Positions 1 through 8,572 of a DNA stretch of 37,648 nucleotides are shown piece after piece. The notes beneath the pieces were generated by a model. The model did no database searches and was not told where the DNA came from. It saw only the letters and a list, made by a program, of their open reading frames with translations. The stretch is from Candidatus Berkelbacteria bacterium (GTDB lineage: Bacteria; Patescibacteriota; UBA1384; DTJR01), in contig JAPLVK010000022.1 in assembly GCA_026397175.1 (NCBI GenBank), forward strand, positions 88,509 through 126,156, read 5' to 3'. The stretch's first letter is position 1. Every line of letters starts with the position of its first letter. The position numbers were made by a program, and so were the translations under genes.

Positions 1-984
1 CCTTAAATGCTGACAATTATGTCTTATATTTCTAAGCATTCTCTTTTTAGTTTTTGTTCGCAATAAAATATGATGAGGAAAAACAATATAGCCCAAAAAA
101 TCAATGCCTTGGTTCCATTTTCGCAAAACAATTTTATCAGGATGAAGTTCTAATTTAAGCTTTTCGGCAAGAAACGATCTGATTATTGGGATCATACTTG
201 CCAGGTGATCGCGGTTACAGCTTAAAACTATAAAATCATCTGCATAACGGATATAATATTTTTCTTTCAGGGTTCTTTTGATAAAATGGTCAAGGGGGTT
301 CAGGTAAATATTGGAAAATAATTGACTGGTTAAATTCCCCAAAGGTGTTCCCCGGCCGCAGGCCGCCGTCTCTCTCTCTATATTTGCTCCGACGCAAGCA
401 AATCGAGCTCCTGAGGGGTAACTGGCAATGACCTCCTCTAGCAACCATAACAAATCAGGATCAGATATTTTCTTTGAAATTAAGTCAAAAAGTATTTTAT
501 GATCAATCGAATGAAAAAATTTTCTAATATCGCATTTCAATGCCCAGACCGTTTTGGTATCGTTCCTCGATAACTTCCAGGCGAATTCTTTTAATCTTAA
601 AACCGCTTTATGAGTTCCTTTGCCGATACGGCTGGAATATAAATCAAAAATAAAGATATTTTCAAAAACAGATTCGATGACTCTGATTATTGCATGATGC
701 AGGACTCGATCTCTGACACTGGCTTTATGGATTTGCCTTAATTTTGGGTCATGAATATAAAATGAGATATAATGTCCATGGTGATATGTCTTATTTTTCA
801 GGTCATCGTGAAGAGAAATAAGATTTTCGGCTAAGTTGTGCTCGAAAACTTGCACATCAACTTTGTTTTTCTTCCCCTCCCTAAATTCTTGCCAAGAAAC
901 CAATAAATTCCTTTTAGAAATAATTTGATCGAAAAGGCCTTGATGCAAAATGATACCATTTTTAGTGATATTGCGATTATCCAT
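1..984 (-). CDS. DGR-type reverse transcriptase, C-terminus truncated by window edge
   Basis: Manual reverse-complement translation is open from ATG at 984 to position 1: MDNRNITKNGIILHQGLFDQIISKRNLLVSWQEFREGKKNKVDVQVFEHNLAENLISLHDDLKNKTYHHGHYISFYIHDPKLRQIHKASVRDRVLHHAIIRVIESVFENIF...KCDIRKFFHSIDH...GTPLGNLTSQLFSNIYLNPLDHF...YYIRYADDFIVL...FLGYIVF. Contains the LGNLTSQ motif typical of DGR RTs and the YADD catalytic box. Not in the ORF track because it runs off the edge. Confidence 0.93.
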   Translation of the reverse strand, partial: MDNRNITKNGIILHQGLFDQIISKRNLLVSWQEFREGKKNKVDVQVFEHNLAENLISLHDDLKNKTYHHGHYISFYIHDPKLRQIHKASVRDRVLHHAIIRVIESVFENIFIFDLYSSRIGKGTHKAVLRLKEFAWKLSRNDTKTVWALKCDIRKFFHSIDHKILFDLISKKISDPDLLWLLEEVIASYPSGARFACVGANIERETAACGRGTPLGNLTSQLFSNIYLNPLDHFIKRTLKEKYYIRYADDFIVLSCNRDHLASMIPIIRSFLAEKLKLELHPDKIVLRKWNQGIDFLGYIVFPHHILLRTKTKKRMLRNIRHNCQHLR

Positions 985-1302
985 AAAACCTACAATTTTT
1001 ATTTATGCATAAATATTACCGTATCTAAAATTCCCAAAAAAGACAGATTCACTATCGGCAGCAAATGTGAAAATATTACCCTTGAAATACTCGAAAAATT
1101 ATATGAAGCTAATTCAAAATATGGACAAGATCGTCTTTTAATCTTGCAAACTGTCGATACTAAATTAAAAATATTACAAGCTCTGGTCAAGGCGCTGTTT
1201 GATGTTAAAGCAATTAGCGATAAAAGATTTTTTCAGCTTTCGGAAAGATTAATTGAAATTGGTAAAATGCTTGGCGGCTGGATTAAAACGACCAAAAAAT
1301 AG
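943..1302 (+). CDS. avd: Avd-like DGR accessory protein (four-helix bundle; 23S rRNA intervening-sequence-like family)
   Basis: ORF 925..1302; Met at 943 is an alternative start. HKTYNFYL...IPKKDRFTIGSKCENITLEILEKLYEA...LQALVKALFDVKAISDKRFFQLSERLIEIGKMLGGWIK matches the Avd pattern, including the terminal IGKMLGGW motif; adjacent to the RT and TR. Confidence 0.85.
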   Translation: MQNDTIFSDIAIIHKTYNFYLCINITVSKIPKKDRFTIGSKCENITLEILEKLYEANSKYGQDRLLILQTVDTKLKILQALVKALFDVKAISDKRFFQLSERLIEIGKMLGGWIKTTKK

Positions 1303-1359
1303 AATAAAAAAACATAAAAGGAGCCATCTTTTTAATCAGACCACTCCTTTTATTCGTTA

Positions 1360-1480
1360 GACTTCGGGAGAAGGAAACACCGAGATTGGGATTCACATTG
1401 TCGGGCCTGTTCCTGTTGACATTGACACCGTCGGACTTGAAGTAGCCGACATAGACGAGGTTGCCATCAGAATCGCGGCG
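1360..1480 (-). repeat. DGR template repeat (TR)
   Basis: Minus-strand sequence CGCCGCGATTCTGATGGCAACCTCGTCTATGTCGGCTACTTCAAGTCCGACGGTGTCAATGTCAACAGGAACAGGCCCGACAATGTGAATCCCAATCTCGGTGTTTCCTTCTCCCGAAGTC aligns without gaps to two repeats in target genes; A residues here are replaced by other bases in the VRs. Adenine-rich (AAC/AAT) codons. Confidence 0.93.
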
Positions 1481-1704
1481 TTTCTTTATGTTTTTCCGTC
1501 CATGCAACGGCTTAGAATTATAAATCAATAATTGTAGTGGTTATGAAAACCAAGACAATTGCCTGTATAAATATGCGGTGGAATTGAAAACCACACTGGA
1601 AAAACATAAGCAGTCTAATTCTTGGCGAGATGAATTCGTAAACTCATCTTCATTAGCCATTATTCAGGATAGTACTTATTTTTTCTAAAATCCAGCCACA
1701 AAAA

Positions 1705-1843: not shown

Positions 1844-2735
1844 GACTGCGGGAGAAGGAAACACCGAGAATGGGATCCACACTGCCGGGCCCGCTCCCGT
1901 AGACATCGACACCGCCGGACTCGAAGTCGCCGACAGAGACGAGGCGGCCATCAGAAGCGCGGCTGGATGTCCATTCATATTTTGTAGGCAGTAGATATTG
2001 ATCATTGGCTTGTTTATATACTTCTAAATCGTAAAGAGCCTCGTCACGACTACGACGAGCTAAGGAAGTGATCCTTAAGCTTGCTAGCCGTTCGGCCGCT
2101 GGTTCCCAGACTGCTGCATCAGCGCTAATAACTAGAGGCCTTAACTCTTCTTTTTGAGCTTCAAACTCCGCAATGGCTTCTTGGTATTCTGGCGGTATCT
2201 CTTTGTCGGCAAAAACTTCTTCTCGCAAATATTTAACCAGTTGTTCGGTTTGATCAAGATAATTTTTGCTGGTTGAATCAGGAATAAACTCTTTGGTCAC
2301 CAATGCCCAGCGTTTGGCGGGTACTTTTCCCAAAGTTGCTTTAGTATTGGGCAACTCTAGCTTGTCGCCGGGTATTTGATCACTGCGGAGAATGAGAAAT
2401 TGGCCAAGTTCTTTAGCTTTTTCCAACTCTTCGGGCGAGAAAAGAATCGGTGGTAATTCAGTTGGAACTGCTTCCGGACCGAAAGATGATTTTCCAATTG
2501 CTTCCGGACCAAGAAAGTCAGCACCCATAATTTCTTTGGCTTCTTCCACTGATACTTTGGATTCGGTTGATTCTGTCCCGAACAGCCCTTTCAACTCTTT
2601 GATCTTGCCAAGCACAACTTGAAAATCCTCGTCTGTTCGGGCGTGACTTCTAAGTTCGGCAATTTCAGAAGCAAGCGATACACCCGCCGCTTCTTTTTCT
2701 GCTTCCTCTGCCGGTGATGGTCCAAATTCTGACAT
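1839..2735 (-). CDS. DGR target protein 1: stand-alone variable-domain protein
   Basis: 298 aa; C-terminus ...RASDGRLVSVGDFESGGVDVYGSGPGSVDPILGVSFSRSQ* is VR1. The region LPPILFSPEELEKAKELGQF...YLDQTEQLVKYLREEVF...YQEAIAEFEAQKEEL... is paralogous to the C-terminal part of the 953-aa protein. Confidence 0.9.
   Translation of the reverse strand: MSEFGPSPAEEAEKEAAGVSLASEIAELRSHARTDEDFQVVLGKIKELKGLFGTESTESKVSVEEAKEIMGADFLGPEAIGKSSFGPEAVPTELPPILFSPEELEKAKELGQFLILRSDQIPGDKLELPNTKATLGKVPAKRWALVTKEFIPDSTSKNYLDQTEQLVKYLREEVFADKEIPPEYQEAIAEFEAQKEELRPLVISADAAVWEPAAERLASLRITSLARRSRDEALYDLEVYKQANDQYLLPTKYEWTSSRASDGRLVSVGDFESGGVDVYGSGPGSVDPILGVSFSRSQ
1844..1963 (-). repeat. DGR variable repeat 1 (VR1), 3' end of target gene 1
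   Basis: Gapless alignment to TR at offset +484: 17 differences, 16 at TR adenines; one T->G at + strand position 1928. Confidence 0.93.
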
Positions 2736-2762: not shown

Positions 2763-2904
2763 TCTGTCGACCGCGATTCGACTTGGCTCATCGAAGTCCG
2801 GAGTTTATCCTGAGCGAAGCCGAATGGGGCGGAACCCCAGCACCAGAGCGAAGCCCGGTGCGGGGCAGGTTAAAGTATCAAAAATCAAATTTCAAAGGAT
2901 CATT
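2763..2904 (-). repeat. Duplicated VR-downstream flank, copy 2 (contains hairpin 2835..2865)
   Basis: Near-identical to 1705..1843; hairpin ccccagcaccagagcgaagcccggtgcgggg conserved. Confidence 0.85.
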
Positions 2905-5761
2905 GACTGCGGGAGAAGGAAACACCGAGAGCGGGATACACACGGCCGGGCCCGTCCCCGCTGACAGAGACACCGCCGGACTCGAAGTAGCCGACATAGA
3001 CGAGGCGGCCATCAGAATCGCGGCGATTAGTGCAATCGTATTTATCCTCCATCAATCGTTCACCGGTAGTCTGAAAGTAGGTAATATCACCATACAAGGA
3101 TTCGACCGGTGATTGACGGGTGAGCTGATTCAATTTCAATGCCTCAAGCCGACGAGCCGCTTCTTTCCATTCTGCTTCGTCAGAACTTTTGACTATTTTA
3201 GCAATGTCGGCCTTTTCTTTATCAAACTCTGCAATTGCTTCGGCATACTCGACCAGCATAGTTTCATCCTTGAAAACCTCATTTCTTAGGTAGTCAGCTA
3301 AAGCTTGAGTTTGTTCTAAATAATCTTTTTCAAGCGAGCCGGGGATACATTCTTTTGATGTCAGAATCCAACCATATTTGGGAGCTTCCTTGGTGTAAAA
3401 ATCAGATTTTAATTTCCATTCGTCATCTCTTGAGGCCAGTATTTTACCCTTGCCCTCGCTAGCCAGAGCTTCGTTTAACATATCATGGATTTCGAGCATT
3501 GTAATCGGCTTACCATCCTTATTCTCGATGGCTTGAAATCGTAAATACTGTCCCAGCTCCCTCGCTCTTTCAAGTGTTTTTCTGGAAAATAGAATGGGCG
3601 GGATTTCGGAAATCTCAACTTTATCCAAGAACGCACTCTTAATATGATCGGGGCCGATAAAGTTTGTTATTCCTTTGGCTTTTTCTTCATCGGTGAGGTC
3701 TTGATCCAGAATCTCTCTAGCAATTTTCATTTGTTCTAGTATTTCGCCAGACAAAGGAGTTTTTTCTCCCGAAAGAGCTGCTTTGACTGAATCTGGAATA
3801 TTTGGATCTGCCATCATGTCGTCTATTTCTCTGTCAACACGATGTTTTGGAACAGATTCTGGTTGGCCGTCTTCAACTTCTTCAAATTCATCAACATCTA
3901 TTTTTTCTATATGAGACAAGAAGCCCATCTCTGAAGGCAAGATATACGGTTTCGATGATGCCGGTTCGTTGGCAACTTCTCCGGAAATTGGGCGATAAAA
4001 GCTTTCGTCCTCTCCAGCATCGACATCAAAACCGTATGCTTTTAGTATTTTCTTAAAAACATCTTTTTCTTGTGACAGGGCTTCAAGATGCGGGTTTTCG
4101 TTGATCTCGCGACTTAAATTTACCCTTAAATGCTCCGCGAATGATCGGCCTGATACCCCAGACACGAGTCGAAATAGAGTTCCGGAATCGAAGAAGGTCT
4201 TTGTCAGGTGGACTTCGACACCACCCGGATTAATTTTATTTCGATAAAAATCACTCTGAAGTTCTTCGGCACTAAATTTGCCGGCAAACGCTTTTTGGGT
4301 AAACTCGGCTGCTCGACAAAGCTGATCTAACATTTCGACATCATTTTTCGATAGAGGCAAAAATCCGGATTCGTGCATAAAACTGGATAACAAGACCTGC
4401 TTAGCTTCGTCGCTATCCATAAAGGGAACCGAGATTGATACAAATTCTCTGGCAATGGCCGGGTCCATCTCCTCTCTCTGTTGATGTTGCTTAGACCGTA
4501 GATTGCCGGTAGCTATCTCATGAAAATTATCTTTAGTAAAGACCTGACCGTTAAAACCGGGCAGATTTATTCCTTCGCCCGGATGCGCCTGCCAGATTCT
4601 TTTAAGTGACAATAGCGAAGCGGTTTGTCCAGATGTTACTTCATCGCTGACTATACCGCTGGTTTCTCCCGATAGTACTCGGGCGTAAGGGCCTTTTTGC
4701 ATCGTACTTTCAATTTTTCCTTCCGTATTAGCTTTGATTATAGGTTTTCCAAAAAGATCGCGCGTCGTTGTCTCCGACGACCACGAAACGACTTCAAAAT
4801 TGTTCTCTTCGCCAACTATTTGTCGCATGGCAAACACAGCTAGAGAAGTTTTTCCGGTGCCGGTAGGACCGCCTAAAAATATTTTGTATCCTGCGCTAGT
4901 TAGCTCGCTGATCCGATCGAACAATGCCTGGCGGGATTTGGTAAGAGCAAAACCAAACTCTCTCATCTGGTGCCTGGTTTTTAGCAGCCGATAGCTCTCG
5001 AGAAGTCCCGACTCTCTGACTCCGAGTCGTGCTTCCTTGGTTTTTATTCTTTGCTCAAGGTTTTCGATAATCTCAAGATATTTTCCAAGATTGCGATCAA
5101 TAACCCCTGTTGGCACCGAAGCGCTCTGCGGATCGAGGTTTCTGGGTTCATTTTGAATTTGTCGATACCTAGCTCTGGCGGCATCAATGGCATTTTCCAA
5201 GGTGATTAAATCCGTAATCGGTGTTTTAGCATCCTTCCTTAGCGAGGTCTCCTGACTAAATACTTTTACAAATTCTTCCCTGACTTGAGGGTGAGAAAGC
5301 AATCTAATGATGTTGCCTTCAATTTCTTTATCAACCTCATTACCTGTTGGTTCTTCTGTCGAGACATCTTGTTTTTCTTGACCTAACTCGCTTAAAAAGG
5401 CATCGGTTAGTTCATCTCCACTTTTATCTTGAAGAAGACCAAACTCTGCAATCCTTTTTCTTTGTTGTTCCACCGCTGGTAAGTTACTGGGATTGATTAA
5501 ATGCTCGTCAGCCAAAGCCATAACATCCAAAAGCATCGCGTCCACCTGATCACGATTCAGTTGTGGTTGGTCGTTGGCATCAGCTAATTCCTCTTGATGA
5601 CGGCGTAACATCCGCATGACAGAGTGAGCTGCAGGATAGAAAGATCTGCGCTCGTAAGCAGGTTGACGATTTTCGACATCATCATACTGACCCTCGATTT
5701 CCGCCGGTCTCGCCTCGGTAGAACCGATGTCTGTTTCTCCTGGTGTTATAGTTTCTGGCAT
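2900..5761 (-). CDS. DGR target protein 2: MoxR-like AAA+ ATPase with C-terminal variable domain
   Basis: 953 aa; Walker A GGPTGTGKTSLAVFAM, downstream GIVSDEVTSGQTASLLSLKRIWQ (Walker B-like), FHEIATGNLRS (sensor-1-like). C-terminus RRDSDGRLVYVGYFESGGVSVSGDGPGRVYPALGVSFSRSQ* is VR2. Confidence 0.9.
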   Translation of the reverse strand: MPETITPGETDIGSTEARPAEIEGQYDDVENRQPAYERRSFYPAAHSVMRMLRRHQEELADANDQPQLNRDQVDAMLLDVMALADEHLINPSNLPAVEQQRKRIAEFGLLQDKSGDELTDAFLSELGQEKQDVSTEEPTGNEVDKEIEGNIIRLLSHPQVREEFVKVFSQETSLRKDAKTPITDLITLENAIDAARARYRQIQNEPRNLDPQSASVPTGVIDRNLGKYLEIIENLEQRIKTKEARLGVRESGLLESYRLLKTRHQMREFGFALTKSRQALFDRISELTSAGYKIFLGGPTGTGKTSLAVFAMRQIVGEENNFEVVSWSSETTTRDLFGKPIIKANTEGKIESTMQKGPYARVLSGETSGIVSDEVTSGQTASLLSLKRIWQAHPGEGINLPGFNGQVFTKDNFHEIATGNLRSKQHQQREEMDPAIAREFVSISVPFMDSDEAKQVLLSSFMHESGFLPLSKNDVEMLDQLCRAAEFTQKAFAGKFSAEELQSDFYRNKINPGGVEVHLTKTFFDSGTLFRLVSGVSGRSFAEHLRVNLSREINENPHLEALSQEKDVFKKILKAYGFDVDAGEDESFYRPISGEVANEPASSKPYILPSEMGFLSHIEKIDVDEFEEVEDGQPESVPKHRVDREIDDMMADPNIPDSVKAALSGEKTPLSGEILEQMKIAREILDQDLTDEEKAKGITNFIGPDHIKSAFLDKVEISEIPPILFSRKTLERARELGQYLRFQAIENKDGKPITMLEIHDMLNEALASEGKGKILASRDDEWKLKSDFYTKEAPKYGWILTSKECIPGSLEKDYLEQTQALADYLRNEVFKDETMLVEYAEAIAEFDKEKADIAKIVKSSDEAEWKEAARRLEALKLNQLTRQSPVESLYGDITYFQTTGERLMEDKYDCTNRRDSDGRLVYVGYFESGGVSVSGDGPGRVYPALGVSFSRSQ
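2905..3025 (-). repeat. DGR variable repeat 2 (VR2), 3' end of target gene 2
   Basis: Gapless alignment to TR at offset +1545: 17 differences by manual count, all at TR adenines. Confidence 0.94.
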
Positions 5762-5779
5762 AATATATGTTTTTACAAA

Positions 5780-8572
5780 TTAAATGCTACCAAGCTTACG
5801 AAATTCGGCCGCTTTTTTTATTATCTCCCATGATTTTATCATCTGGCTATGGTGCATTGCAACTGCTTGCGCAATATCAGTAGCCACCACAGCTGATCCT
5901 GGGCTTTCTGGCGTATCAAACATATCAACTACCGGCATGGATTTTTCAGTAAATCCGACAGCATTAACTATGACGCCCACTTTTCTTAAGTCATCTACGA
6001 TCGCTTTTGATCGGGCAGCTGCCTCTACATGCAACGAATAATTACACGATTCTTTGCCACAAGCACTGCACCAAAGATTGCCGTCCGAGAGAATTGTTAA
6101 TGTCTTTACCATCTTTCCCGACATTATTTTAGTAACAGTTTCGGGTTGAGACATTAGAGCGTCTCTGTACGCTTCAAGTGCACCAACCATGTCGCCGGCA
6201 CCTTGCTCGGTTTGATCAAGAAGCTTATAAAGTTCCGCTAATTGCGTCATTGTTATCTCTCGCTCTCCGGAAGTCAACTCGCGAAATTTATCTTTCCCAT
6301 GAATCGAGAGTAAGTGGTTACTGATGAATGGCAGCTCGGATAATTCTCCGGCAAAATATTTTAGCTGTTGGTTGATTTCGAATCCATGATAAAGAGCGGA
6401 CATGACAAATGTTTTCTGATATTCCTTGAGGGAATGTCCATTACGATCGCTTGCTTCCATTGAAGCAGTTAGGTCAAGAAGAAAGTCGTTGGAAAAATCA
6501 ATGGGGAGTTTAATCTCTCGTTCGCCTCGTTTTACTTTTTCGAAACCATAGGGATCATCGCTTCCCGAGAGCAAGTCAATTGCTGCCGAACTGGGATCAA
6601 CTAGGTCATCCCCTAAACTCTGACGGGACTGAATAATTCTGGTCTTGTCGGGCAAGCGATAAGCAACCAAGAAAAGTTCAAAAAACTTTTTCCATTCATC
6701 ACCAAGGGTTGAATCTCCTATCTTATCTATAGTATTTTCCCGAGGAATTTTAGTTTGGTTGGCTTCATCTATATATTTCACAACCCGTTCCCATTCTTCA
6801 GGAGAAATCCCATATTCTTTCAAAAATTCTTCCTGCATCCTTTGTTTTGCAGTATCTTCGCTCCCTAAAATCTCGTTGTATTTATTTTGCAAAAACTGGT
6901 TGAATTTCTCGAGTTGGTCTTGGGTTAGTTCTAGCCCTTCATCTTCAGTTTCACCCTCGTAACCTGTTTCGCCATCTTCTTTCTGCTCACGCATTTCTTC
7001 GCCACCGCCACTGCCACCTTCCTCTTTTTCTTTCTCCTCCTCTTCATCGTCTTTTTTAGGAGGAGTTGCGTCAATTCTTTTCCAAATCCCTTCTGTAATA
7101 TCAAAAAATTCCGTCCATGCATGTTTGGTACCGGCGAGTGGAGCAAATCCAAATCGTTTGTCGGTAACATAATAGCCGGTGACCATTCGGGCTGGAATTC
7201 CAAGTGATCTTAGCTGGGCTATTAAATAAAAATTAGATACATCGCAATCAGCCTTTTTAACATTCTCGAGTGTTTTAAAATATTCCTGACCCGCTTGACC
7301 GAGCATTGCTCCGACTTCATCCGAATTAACATATTCGAAATCCTGGCGAATCTGACCGACTATCCTTTTTGCCATTGCACTAGCAGAGATATCGGTTTTG
7401 CCCAATTCGTCTAAACGGGCAGATGTTTCCGGACTGAATAAATCAGAGGCAGCCACCGAAGACTTTTCTACCTCGGTTGGATCAAGTGACATAAAATCAG
7501 GGGCTTTTTTTTGAACAACAAATTCAAACTCATACTCCTGCCCGATTTCTTCTGTGTCTGATCGCAAATCAGCAGAAATGAGGCAGATGCCTTTCGGGTC
7601 TCGTTTAATAACTAGACCAGGGGTCAAACTGCCTCTAATAATCTCGGCGCCGGCTGGCAATGGAATGATGAGCGGTCCATCGGCTAATTTCTGCCCATCG
7701 GTACCCTTAAATTGATACTGTTTTATTTCCTCGTTCTCATCAATTTCCAGCCCCTCAACGCTTTGGGCAGTTTGCGGAGTCGCAACCACTTGCATACTCT
7801 CCCAATCAACACCATCAAATACTTTTTCGCGGTAATGGCCGCCAAAAAATGGATAAACTCTTTGCAAAATCTCGCTCTCATTGAGCGGCTCGCCCTCGTT
7901 GTCTTCGGTAGATGGTTTAAACGAATCGCCAACAGTTTCTTCCAGCTGCCGGTCCAACTCCATGGCTTGCTGAATTATTGGCGTAATAAATCTTTGGTAA
8001 TAATCAAGTTTTCTGTCAATTGACACCGCGCCATCAGCAATAGCATCCAGAGGATTCCCACCGGTGCGTTTACTTGCCGGCAAGGACTCAAAAGATATTT
8101 TAAGCTCACTGGACATTTCGGGAAAACTGCCAGTCGCGACATATTGGAAACAGGCATTTGTTGCTTCGCGCTTATACGAGTCTGCAGGGGGTAAACCAGC
8201 TAAGACCTGCTCAAGGTTCTGTCGTTCCGATTCTCTTAATCGCTGTGCCGCCCCCCATAAGGCGATATTTCCGATGACCTCCGGGTCCGTTTCCGAAAGT
8301 GTTTTAATGTCTTCTGTTTTCTCACTGCGTAAAATATTTGCAATTTCAGATTGTCTCATCGCCGTTGTGGCAGCGGTAACCTCGGCTTGTTCTGTATTTT
8401 TAAATAATTCAGGGTTGACAACAACGGTATTGCTATCAGTATCAACACTCAATTTTTGGCTAACATTGCGATCCCATAGAATTTGATAGCCTAAAATATT
8501 CGCAATCCGTGGGGTGGGTATCGCTTCAATGGTTACTTCCTCTTGACCATCAATTGGTTCGTTTTCTGGCAT
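5780..8572 (-). CDS. Transglutaminase-like plus von Willebrand factor A (vWA) domain protein, partner of the MoxR-like ATPase
   Basis: 930 aa; ADCDVSNFYLIAQLRSLGIPARMVTGYYV...TKHAWTEFFDITEGIWKRIDATPP (Cys-His-Asp transglutaminase-like core), acidic/Gly linker, then LLDLTASMEAS (MIDAS-like DxTxS)...LTILSDGNLWC...VGVIVNAVGFTE. 18 bp upstream of the AAA+ gene. Confidence 0.8.
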   Translation of the reverse strand: MPENEPIDGQEEVTIEAIPTPRIANILGYQILWDRNVSQKLSVDTDSNTVVVNPELFKNTEQAEVTAATTAMRQSEIANILRSEKTEDIKTLSETDPEVIGNIALWGAAQRLRESERQNLEQVLAGLPPADSYKREATNACFQYVATGSFPEMSSELKISFESLPASKRTGGNPLDAIADGAVSIDRKLDYYQRFITPIIQQAMELDRQLEETVGDSFKPSTEDNEGEPLNESEILQRVYPFFGGHYREKVFDGVDWESMQVVATPQTAQSVEGLEIDENEEIKQYQFKGTDGQKLADGPLIIPLPAGAEIIRGSLTPGLVIKRDPKGICLISADLRSDTEEIGQEYEFEFVVQKKAPDFMSLDPTEVEKSSVAASDLFSPETSARLDELGKTDISASAMAKRIVGQIRQDFEYVNSDEVGAMLGQAGQEYFKTLENVKKADCDVSNFYLIAQLRSLGIPARMVTGYYVTDKRFGFAPLAGTKHAWTEFFDITEGIWKRIDATPPKKDDEEEEKEKEEGGSGGGEEMREQKEDGETGYEGETEDEGLELTQDQLEKFNQFLQNKYNEILGSEDTAKQRMQEEFLKEYGISPEEWERVVKYIDEANQTKIPRENTIDKIGDSTLGDEWKKFFELFLVAYRLPDKTRIIQSRQSLGDDLVDPSSAAIDLLSGSDDPYGFEKVKRGEREIKLPIDFSNDFLLDLTASMEASDRNGHSLKEYQKTFVMSALYHGFEINQQLKYFAGELSELPFISNHLLSIHGKDKFRELTSGEREITMTQLAELYKLLDQTEQGAGDMVGALEAYRDALMSQPETVTKIMSGKMVKTLTILSDGNLWCSACGKESCNYSLHVEAAARSKAIVDDLRKVGVIVNAVGFTEKSMPVVDMFDTPESPGSAVVATDIAQAVAMHHSQMIKSWEIIKKAAEFRKLGSI

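Follow-up and report, generated by a model that had tools for sequence, protein, structure and literature searches.

Antisense avd and frame-disrupting repeats in the DGRs of a Patescibacteria clade

The locus and its genes

The stretch of DNA analysed here (the window) comprises 37,648 nucleotides from a Candidatus Berkelbacteria bacterium and opens within the gene for a DGR reverse transcriptase (RT). The RT gene, a template repeat (TR) and two variable repeats (VRs) are on the minus strand, and between TR and RT, on the plus strand, lies avd (Table 1). This is the layout that a preliminary description of the window had given, and it holds: the plus-strand open reading frame (925/943-1302) matches the profile NF033474 DivGenRetAVD with 85.8 bits (cut-off 80) and Pfam bAvd PF22296 with 65 bits (cut-off 40). 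Mismatches to the TR fall at TR adenines in 18 of 18 cases for VR1 and in 16 of 17 for VR2. With a DGR-type RT beside the TR, mismatches lying at TR adenines in all cases but one, VRs at the 3′ ends of target genes, and an Avd, the locus is, judged by its sequence, a real DGR of an RT clade that is found across the Patescibacteria. The target gene of VR2 encodes an AAA_5-domain ATPase (Pfam AAA_5, 28.3 bits) whose C-terminus carries the variable region; a transglutaminase-domain gene (5780-8572) follows.

Table 1. Features of the DGR locus, in window coordinates.
Feature	Position	Strand	Basis or remark
DGR reverse transcriptase, 5′ part	1..984	-	RVT_1, GNLTSQ and YADD motifs, contig view
Short mid-RT repeat	369..379	.	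TCTCTCTCTCT (AGAGAGAGAGA on the RT strand); 11 nt, RT core +566
avd	943..1302	+	ATG 943, stop 1300-1302; NF033474, PF22296, homologous starts in paralogues
5′ ends of avd and RT, overlapping head-to-head	943..984	.	42 nt; from sequence
Candidate spacer (Sp-like) RNA, antisense of last 40 avd codons	1183..1302	-	Folding excess across 160 loci
Gap from TR 3′ end to avd stop	1303..1359	-	57 nt; clade median 21 nt
Template repeat (TR)	1360..1483	-	A-biased TR/VR alignment
Variable repeat 1 (VR1)	1844..1963	-	TR/VR alignment; 3′ end of target gene 1839-2735
Variable repeat 2 (VR2)	2905..3028	-	TR/VR alignment; 3′ end of target gene 2900-5761

The Avd profile match opens only at residue 17 of the frame read from position 925, i.e., at window position 973, and the sequence AAAAGG precedes the ATG at 943, so that this ATG is the likely start of avd. 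The RT frame has an ATG at 984, and matches RVT_1 with 96 bits; identity among the paralogues is 52-56%. It extends over 328 aa inside the window and about 381 aa in the contig, crossing a short N gap within the gene just upstream of window position 1, so that the start of the window flanks a scaffold gap.

The 5′ ends of avd and RT had been described as overlapping by about 40-60 bp, and measured from the RT ATG at 984 the overlap is 42 nt with the ATG at 943 and 60 nt with the TTG at 925; an alternative in-frame RT start, TTG 948, shrinks it to 6 nt. Of the RT N-terminus whose conservation had been put forward for checking (900-984), the part from about residue 17 (window position ~936) is conserved and residues 1-16 are a non-conserved leader, so that ATG 984 is not forced by the data. 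The avd ATG at 943 is the antisense of the RT His14 codon CAT, and in relatives the homologous CAT sits just before the RT core. By the geometry of the mapped strands, a transcript reading from TR to RT would be antisense to all of avd, as had been stated. A promoter and terminator scan of window positions 850-1700 gave no excess over shuffled sequences, and a phmmer search of the PDB with the Avd query gave nothing useful.

Arrangement in relatives and the RNA between TR and RT

The source genome contains five related RTs. Four of the five DGRs have avd head-to-head with RT, all four in the order VR-TR-antisense avd-RT: the starts overlap by 42 nt in the window copy and by 21 nt in C20b, the start codons share CATG in C20a, and the starts are 88 nt apart in C26. 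The fifth RT (C11) has a canonical, codirectional avd. An RT-based search, blind to avd, yielded 80 loci from Patescibacteria/CPR genomes, and in all 79 with enough sequence avd was adjacent and divergent. After loci from a 382-genome sample of the phylum had been added, the non-redundant set comprised 166 loci, with avd adjacent and divergent in 163 of 163, the other three ending at contig edges; this is the survey of Avd orientation in related CPR DGRs that had been proposed, and its outcome is uniform. The nearest-ATG pairs of avd and RT overlap in 57 of the 89 loci with an in-frame avd. Among more distant Patescibacteria RTs, avd is mostly codirectional or elsewhere, with three divergent cases, and an approximate RT tree (FastTree) requires seven changes of avd orientation. 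The control outside the Patescibacteria consisted of eight fetched phage DGR loci, in which annotated avd was codirectional and upstream of RT in six of six.

The DGR of Bordetella phage BPP-1 (mtd-avd-TR-brt) is like that of the window in having RT, Avd and an A-specific TR/VR pair, with the VR at the 3′ end of the target and the TR upstream of RT. In BPP-1, avd is codirectional and precedes the TR, and a separate spacer lies between TR and RT (PMC12875486), whereas here an antisense avd lies between them; the window copy thus departs from the canonical BPP-1-type cassette, in which avd comes before TR and shares its strand with TR and RT. The BPP-1 spacer RNA has a folded structure to which RT-Avd is recruited and from which cDNA is primed (PMC12875486). 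In the Patescibacteria clade the median distance from the TR 3′ end is 21 nt to the avd stop and 420 nt to the RT core, so that a spacer RNA of the BPP-1 type would here have to be antisense avd.

Folding z-scores were computed per locus over 160 loci and give a clade-level rather than a single-locus signal: antisense RNA of the 40 codons at the end of avd folds more stably than its synonymous shuffles do (mean z -0.87, p = 6e-15), and the remainder of avd shows no folding excess over such shuffles. Where avd carries a C-terminal extension the signal shifts into it, and the codons of the avd C-terminus show slightly higher synonymous conservation. Sense avd RNA also has excess structure (z -0.64), so that the signal is not purely antisense. 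Per-locus scores were used because the avds are too divergent for consensus RNA folding, which found nothing over 40 avds; Rfam gave no match to a spacer RNA family. These results support, short of proof, an Sp-like element in the antisense of the avd 3′ end, and lend statistical weight to the earlier suggestion that avd coding sequence constrains the RNA downstream of TR. A LOOT RNA (RF03000) was seen about 100 nt after RT at one locus (L057:6054-6171); this RNA is common among Patescibacteria, passing the cut-off in 35 of 191 genomes, and its positions in the 191 made no link to DGRs evident.

Repeats at the junction and within the RT gene

On inspection, many avd frames and some RT frames of relatives were found to have no start codon, with runs of C7-C9 or CT/GA sitting between the avd ATG and the conserved avd core. 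A simple-sequence repeat is present in the ~60-nt avd/RT junction of 107 of the 166 loci, a density of 10.4/kb (107 in 10.2 kb) against 0.06/kb in the flanks (1.08 Mb), i.e., 170 times higher. The units are G (90 loci; G7-13), GA/AG, CT, GT, and the pentamers CTGTC/TGTCC, the repeats other than homopolymers spanning 11-40 nt, and about 30 changes of repeat class are needed on the RT tree. The preliminary description had overlooked that the start overlap is, in most relatives, the site of a frame-disrupting repeat, and that the RT of the window has a short repeat at a second site. In the window itself, positions 925-1000 contain no junction repeat, and the RT frame is intact.

In 93 of 106 junction-repeat loci, just one of the three phases gives access to the avd ATG. 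As sequenced, it is in frame (ON) in 33 of the 106, about one third, compared with 57 of 57 loci without a repeat (p = 1e-20), and out of register (OFF) in 73, about two thirds. By HMM score the OFF avds are without decay (128.6 bits vs 128.4 for ON). Only two of the 73 have an ATG beyond the repeat; 24 have a GTG, TTG or ATG there, so that in some of them translation could still begin past the repeat. For RT, 38 loci have no ATG, GTG or TTG between repeat and core. The phase that is open for RT is the one open for avd in 24 of 24 single-phase loci without a later RT start (expected 1/3; p = 3.5e-12), and in a control of loci where RT has a later start of its own, the phases agree in 7 of 11. 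Of the hints at a function for the start overlap, this agreement is the strongest; antisense frame bias could be partly behind it, and the control argues against bias as the full account. Every surveyed locus is one consensus sequence, and no variation of repeat length within a population was seen, which counts against a switch. Two near relatives (L045 and L047, 91.7% identical, a comparison between species) have repeats of 13 and 17 nt, ON and OFF, respectively, and a same-genus search for allele pairs returned one pair at 85% (L271/L273). Over the clade as a whole, both in-frame and out-of-frame alleles exist, and repeat length sets the frame.

Many RT matches in the 382-genome sample break off near model position 180, and exactly there lies a (GA)n tract of 16-39 nt or another repeat. 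RTs split at codon ~180 have a repeat in 12 cases and none in one, intact RTs have one in five and none in 61 (p = 1.5e-9); since split RTs were deliberately fetched, the ON/OFF ratio for the mid-RT site is biased, while the association of split with repeat is affected far less. The two repeat sites, junction and mid-RT, exclude each other (p = 1.8e-9), occurring together in only three loci, all with a weak AT10. The C20a RT, modelled with AlphaFold2 (mean pLDDT 87), has a single segment with pLDDT below 50, residues 181-196. The clade as a whole carries simple-sequence repeats far above background, either in the start region or in this tolerant RT loop; the 36 of 166 loci without either repeat, and the window copy with no more than a short one, count against reading them as a switch. 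In the eight phage loci no comparable repeat was found in RT or avd. The AG tract of the window leaves the RT frame intact and is short for a switch; it would be a weak switch or else what remains of one. Two contigs (L137 and L145) end at the mid-RT repeat position (+544 and +549), as expected of a repeat of variable length.

A third site lies near RT +350, where (GA)n occurs in other DGRs, among them C11, whose avd is codirectional and whose tract measures 21 nt; in L222 the RT is split by it. (GA)9 is present in 31 of 113 RT-positive genomes vs 12 of 269 others, and 14 of 28 (GA)9 loci inspected, from different genomes, are in DGR genes. Three loci without other repeats have tetranucleotide repeats just past RT, possibly a further switch site: TGGA x8 in L024 (+1032 from the RT core), TGGA x10 in L033 (+1068) and ATAG x8.5 in L080 (+1107).

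A hypermutator that may itself be switched

It is probable that these loci represent a DGR with the fixed order target(VR)-TR-antisense avd-RT, in which the antisense of avd encodes the spacer and slippery repeats cause phase variation. Read from the opposite strand, the 3′ end of avd would also provide the spacer RNA, for the recruitment of RT-Avd and the priming of cDNA. Strand slippage would add or remove repeat units in the shared start region, thereby moving the avd ATG, and in many loci also the RT ATG, in or out of frame and switching hypermutation on or off in each cell; in other lineages the repeat would instead sit in RT, in its only disordered loop. Losing Avd or RT abolishes the activity of BPP-1 in E. 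coli (PMC12875486), and since both are needed there, a switch should affect the entire element. The sequences suggest, then, a mutator that may itself be randomly switched on and off. The more specific reading, of a contingency-locus hypermutator in which one repeat sets both genes in phase and antisense avd is the spacer, and which has been regained many times at further sites in Patescibacteria DGRs, is favoured with less assurance. For the window copy specifically, it is the architecture that is observed, its own short RT repeat being in frame.

That the head-to-head layout would serve mainly for antisense regulation, the avd mRNA and the TR/RT transcript pairing and limiting each other, is unlikely: every locus of the clade has the full antisense geometry that this would need, but the repeats, their frames and the mid-RT repeats are left unexplained. 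Such regulation is compatible with phase variation. A good deal less probable is programmed ribosomal frameshifting, or slippage of RNA polymerase, at the repeat, by which Avd and RT would be made from every allele and the expression level set. It would suit the 73 of 106 avd frames that are out of register yet conserved, and homopolymer runs are common slippage sites; however, repeats of GA, CT, GT or pentamers, 11-40 nt long and not known as frameshift signals, occupy the same site, and a fixed recoding signal should prefer one phase, whereas ON is found in about one third. Slightly less credible still is a repeat acting in promoter spacing or as an RNA element, rather than as a reading-frame switch; its position between divergent genes is one at which the promoters of both could well lie, but unrelated units do equally well, the frame statistics depend on the repeat, and an equivalent repeat lies inside RT codons, with frame splits. 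An assembly inversion (at 985-1350, as the preliminary description had allowed) or a chance open reading frame can be dismissed despite the N gap in RT just upstream of the window, since Avd scores above a curated cut-off and the paralogues and 163 relatives share the order.

The phase-variation reading has parallels in the contingency loci of Campylobacter, Neisseria and Haemophilus, where reading frames likewise contain repeats of dinucleotides and longer units, about one third of them in frame. Repeat switches in these genera mostly govern surface and modification genes; the repeat in Patescibacteria would instead act on a targeted mutator, where two divergent genes can be set by a single repeat. 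Phase variation in C. jejuni involves poly-G/C tracts of 7 or more (PMC4965091), as in the Patescibacteria junctions. The clade of the window resembles DGR clade 2 of Roux et al. 2021 (Patescibacteria) in host group and as an RT-based clade, and may belong to it; the lower than average activity reported for clade 2 fits a random switch (PMC8144416). Neither avd nor its orientation is mentioned in the main text of that paper. In the literature searched, which lay outside the main surveys of cassette layout, no link between DGRs and repeat switches was found; others may already have described divergent avd in CPR DGRs, and repeat control is expected to be the part that is new.

DGRs are the best-known natural targeted mutators, and the phase-variation reading bears on how hosts limit their cost. 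If it is true, a heritable random switch would keep the DGRs of most Patescibacteria cells off, and metagenome reads should show its signature without further work. A spacer RNA that runs antisense to the gene of its own cofactor would be a compact case of two-strand coding, testable by synonymous mutation. Tracts of (GA)9 or longer also lie in, or at the 5′ end of, long non-DGR open reading frames of Patescibacteria (L217, L218, L226, L230, L232, L234, L237, L239 and L240), which are candidates for other phase-variable genes.
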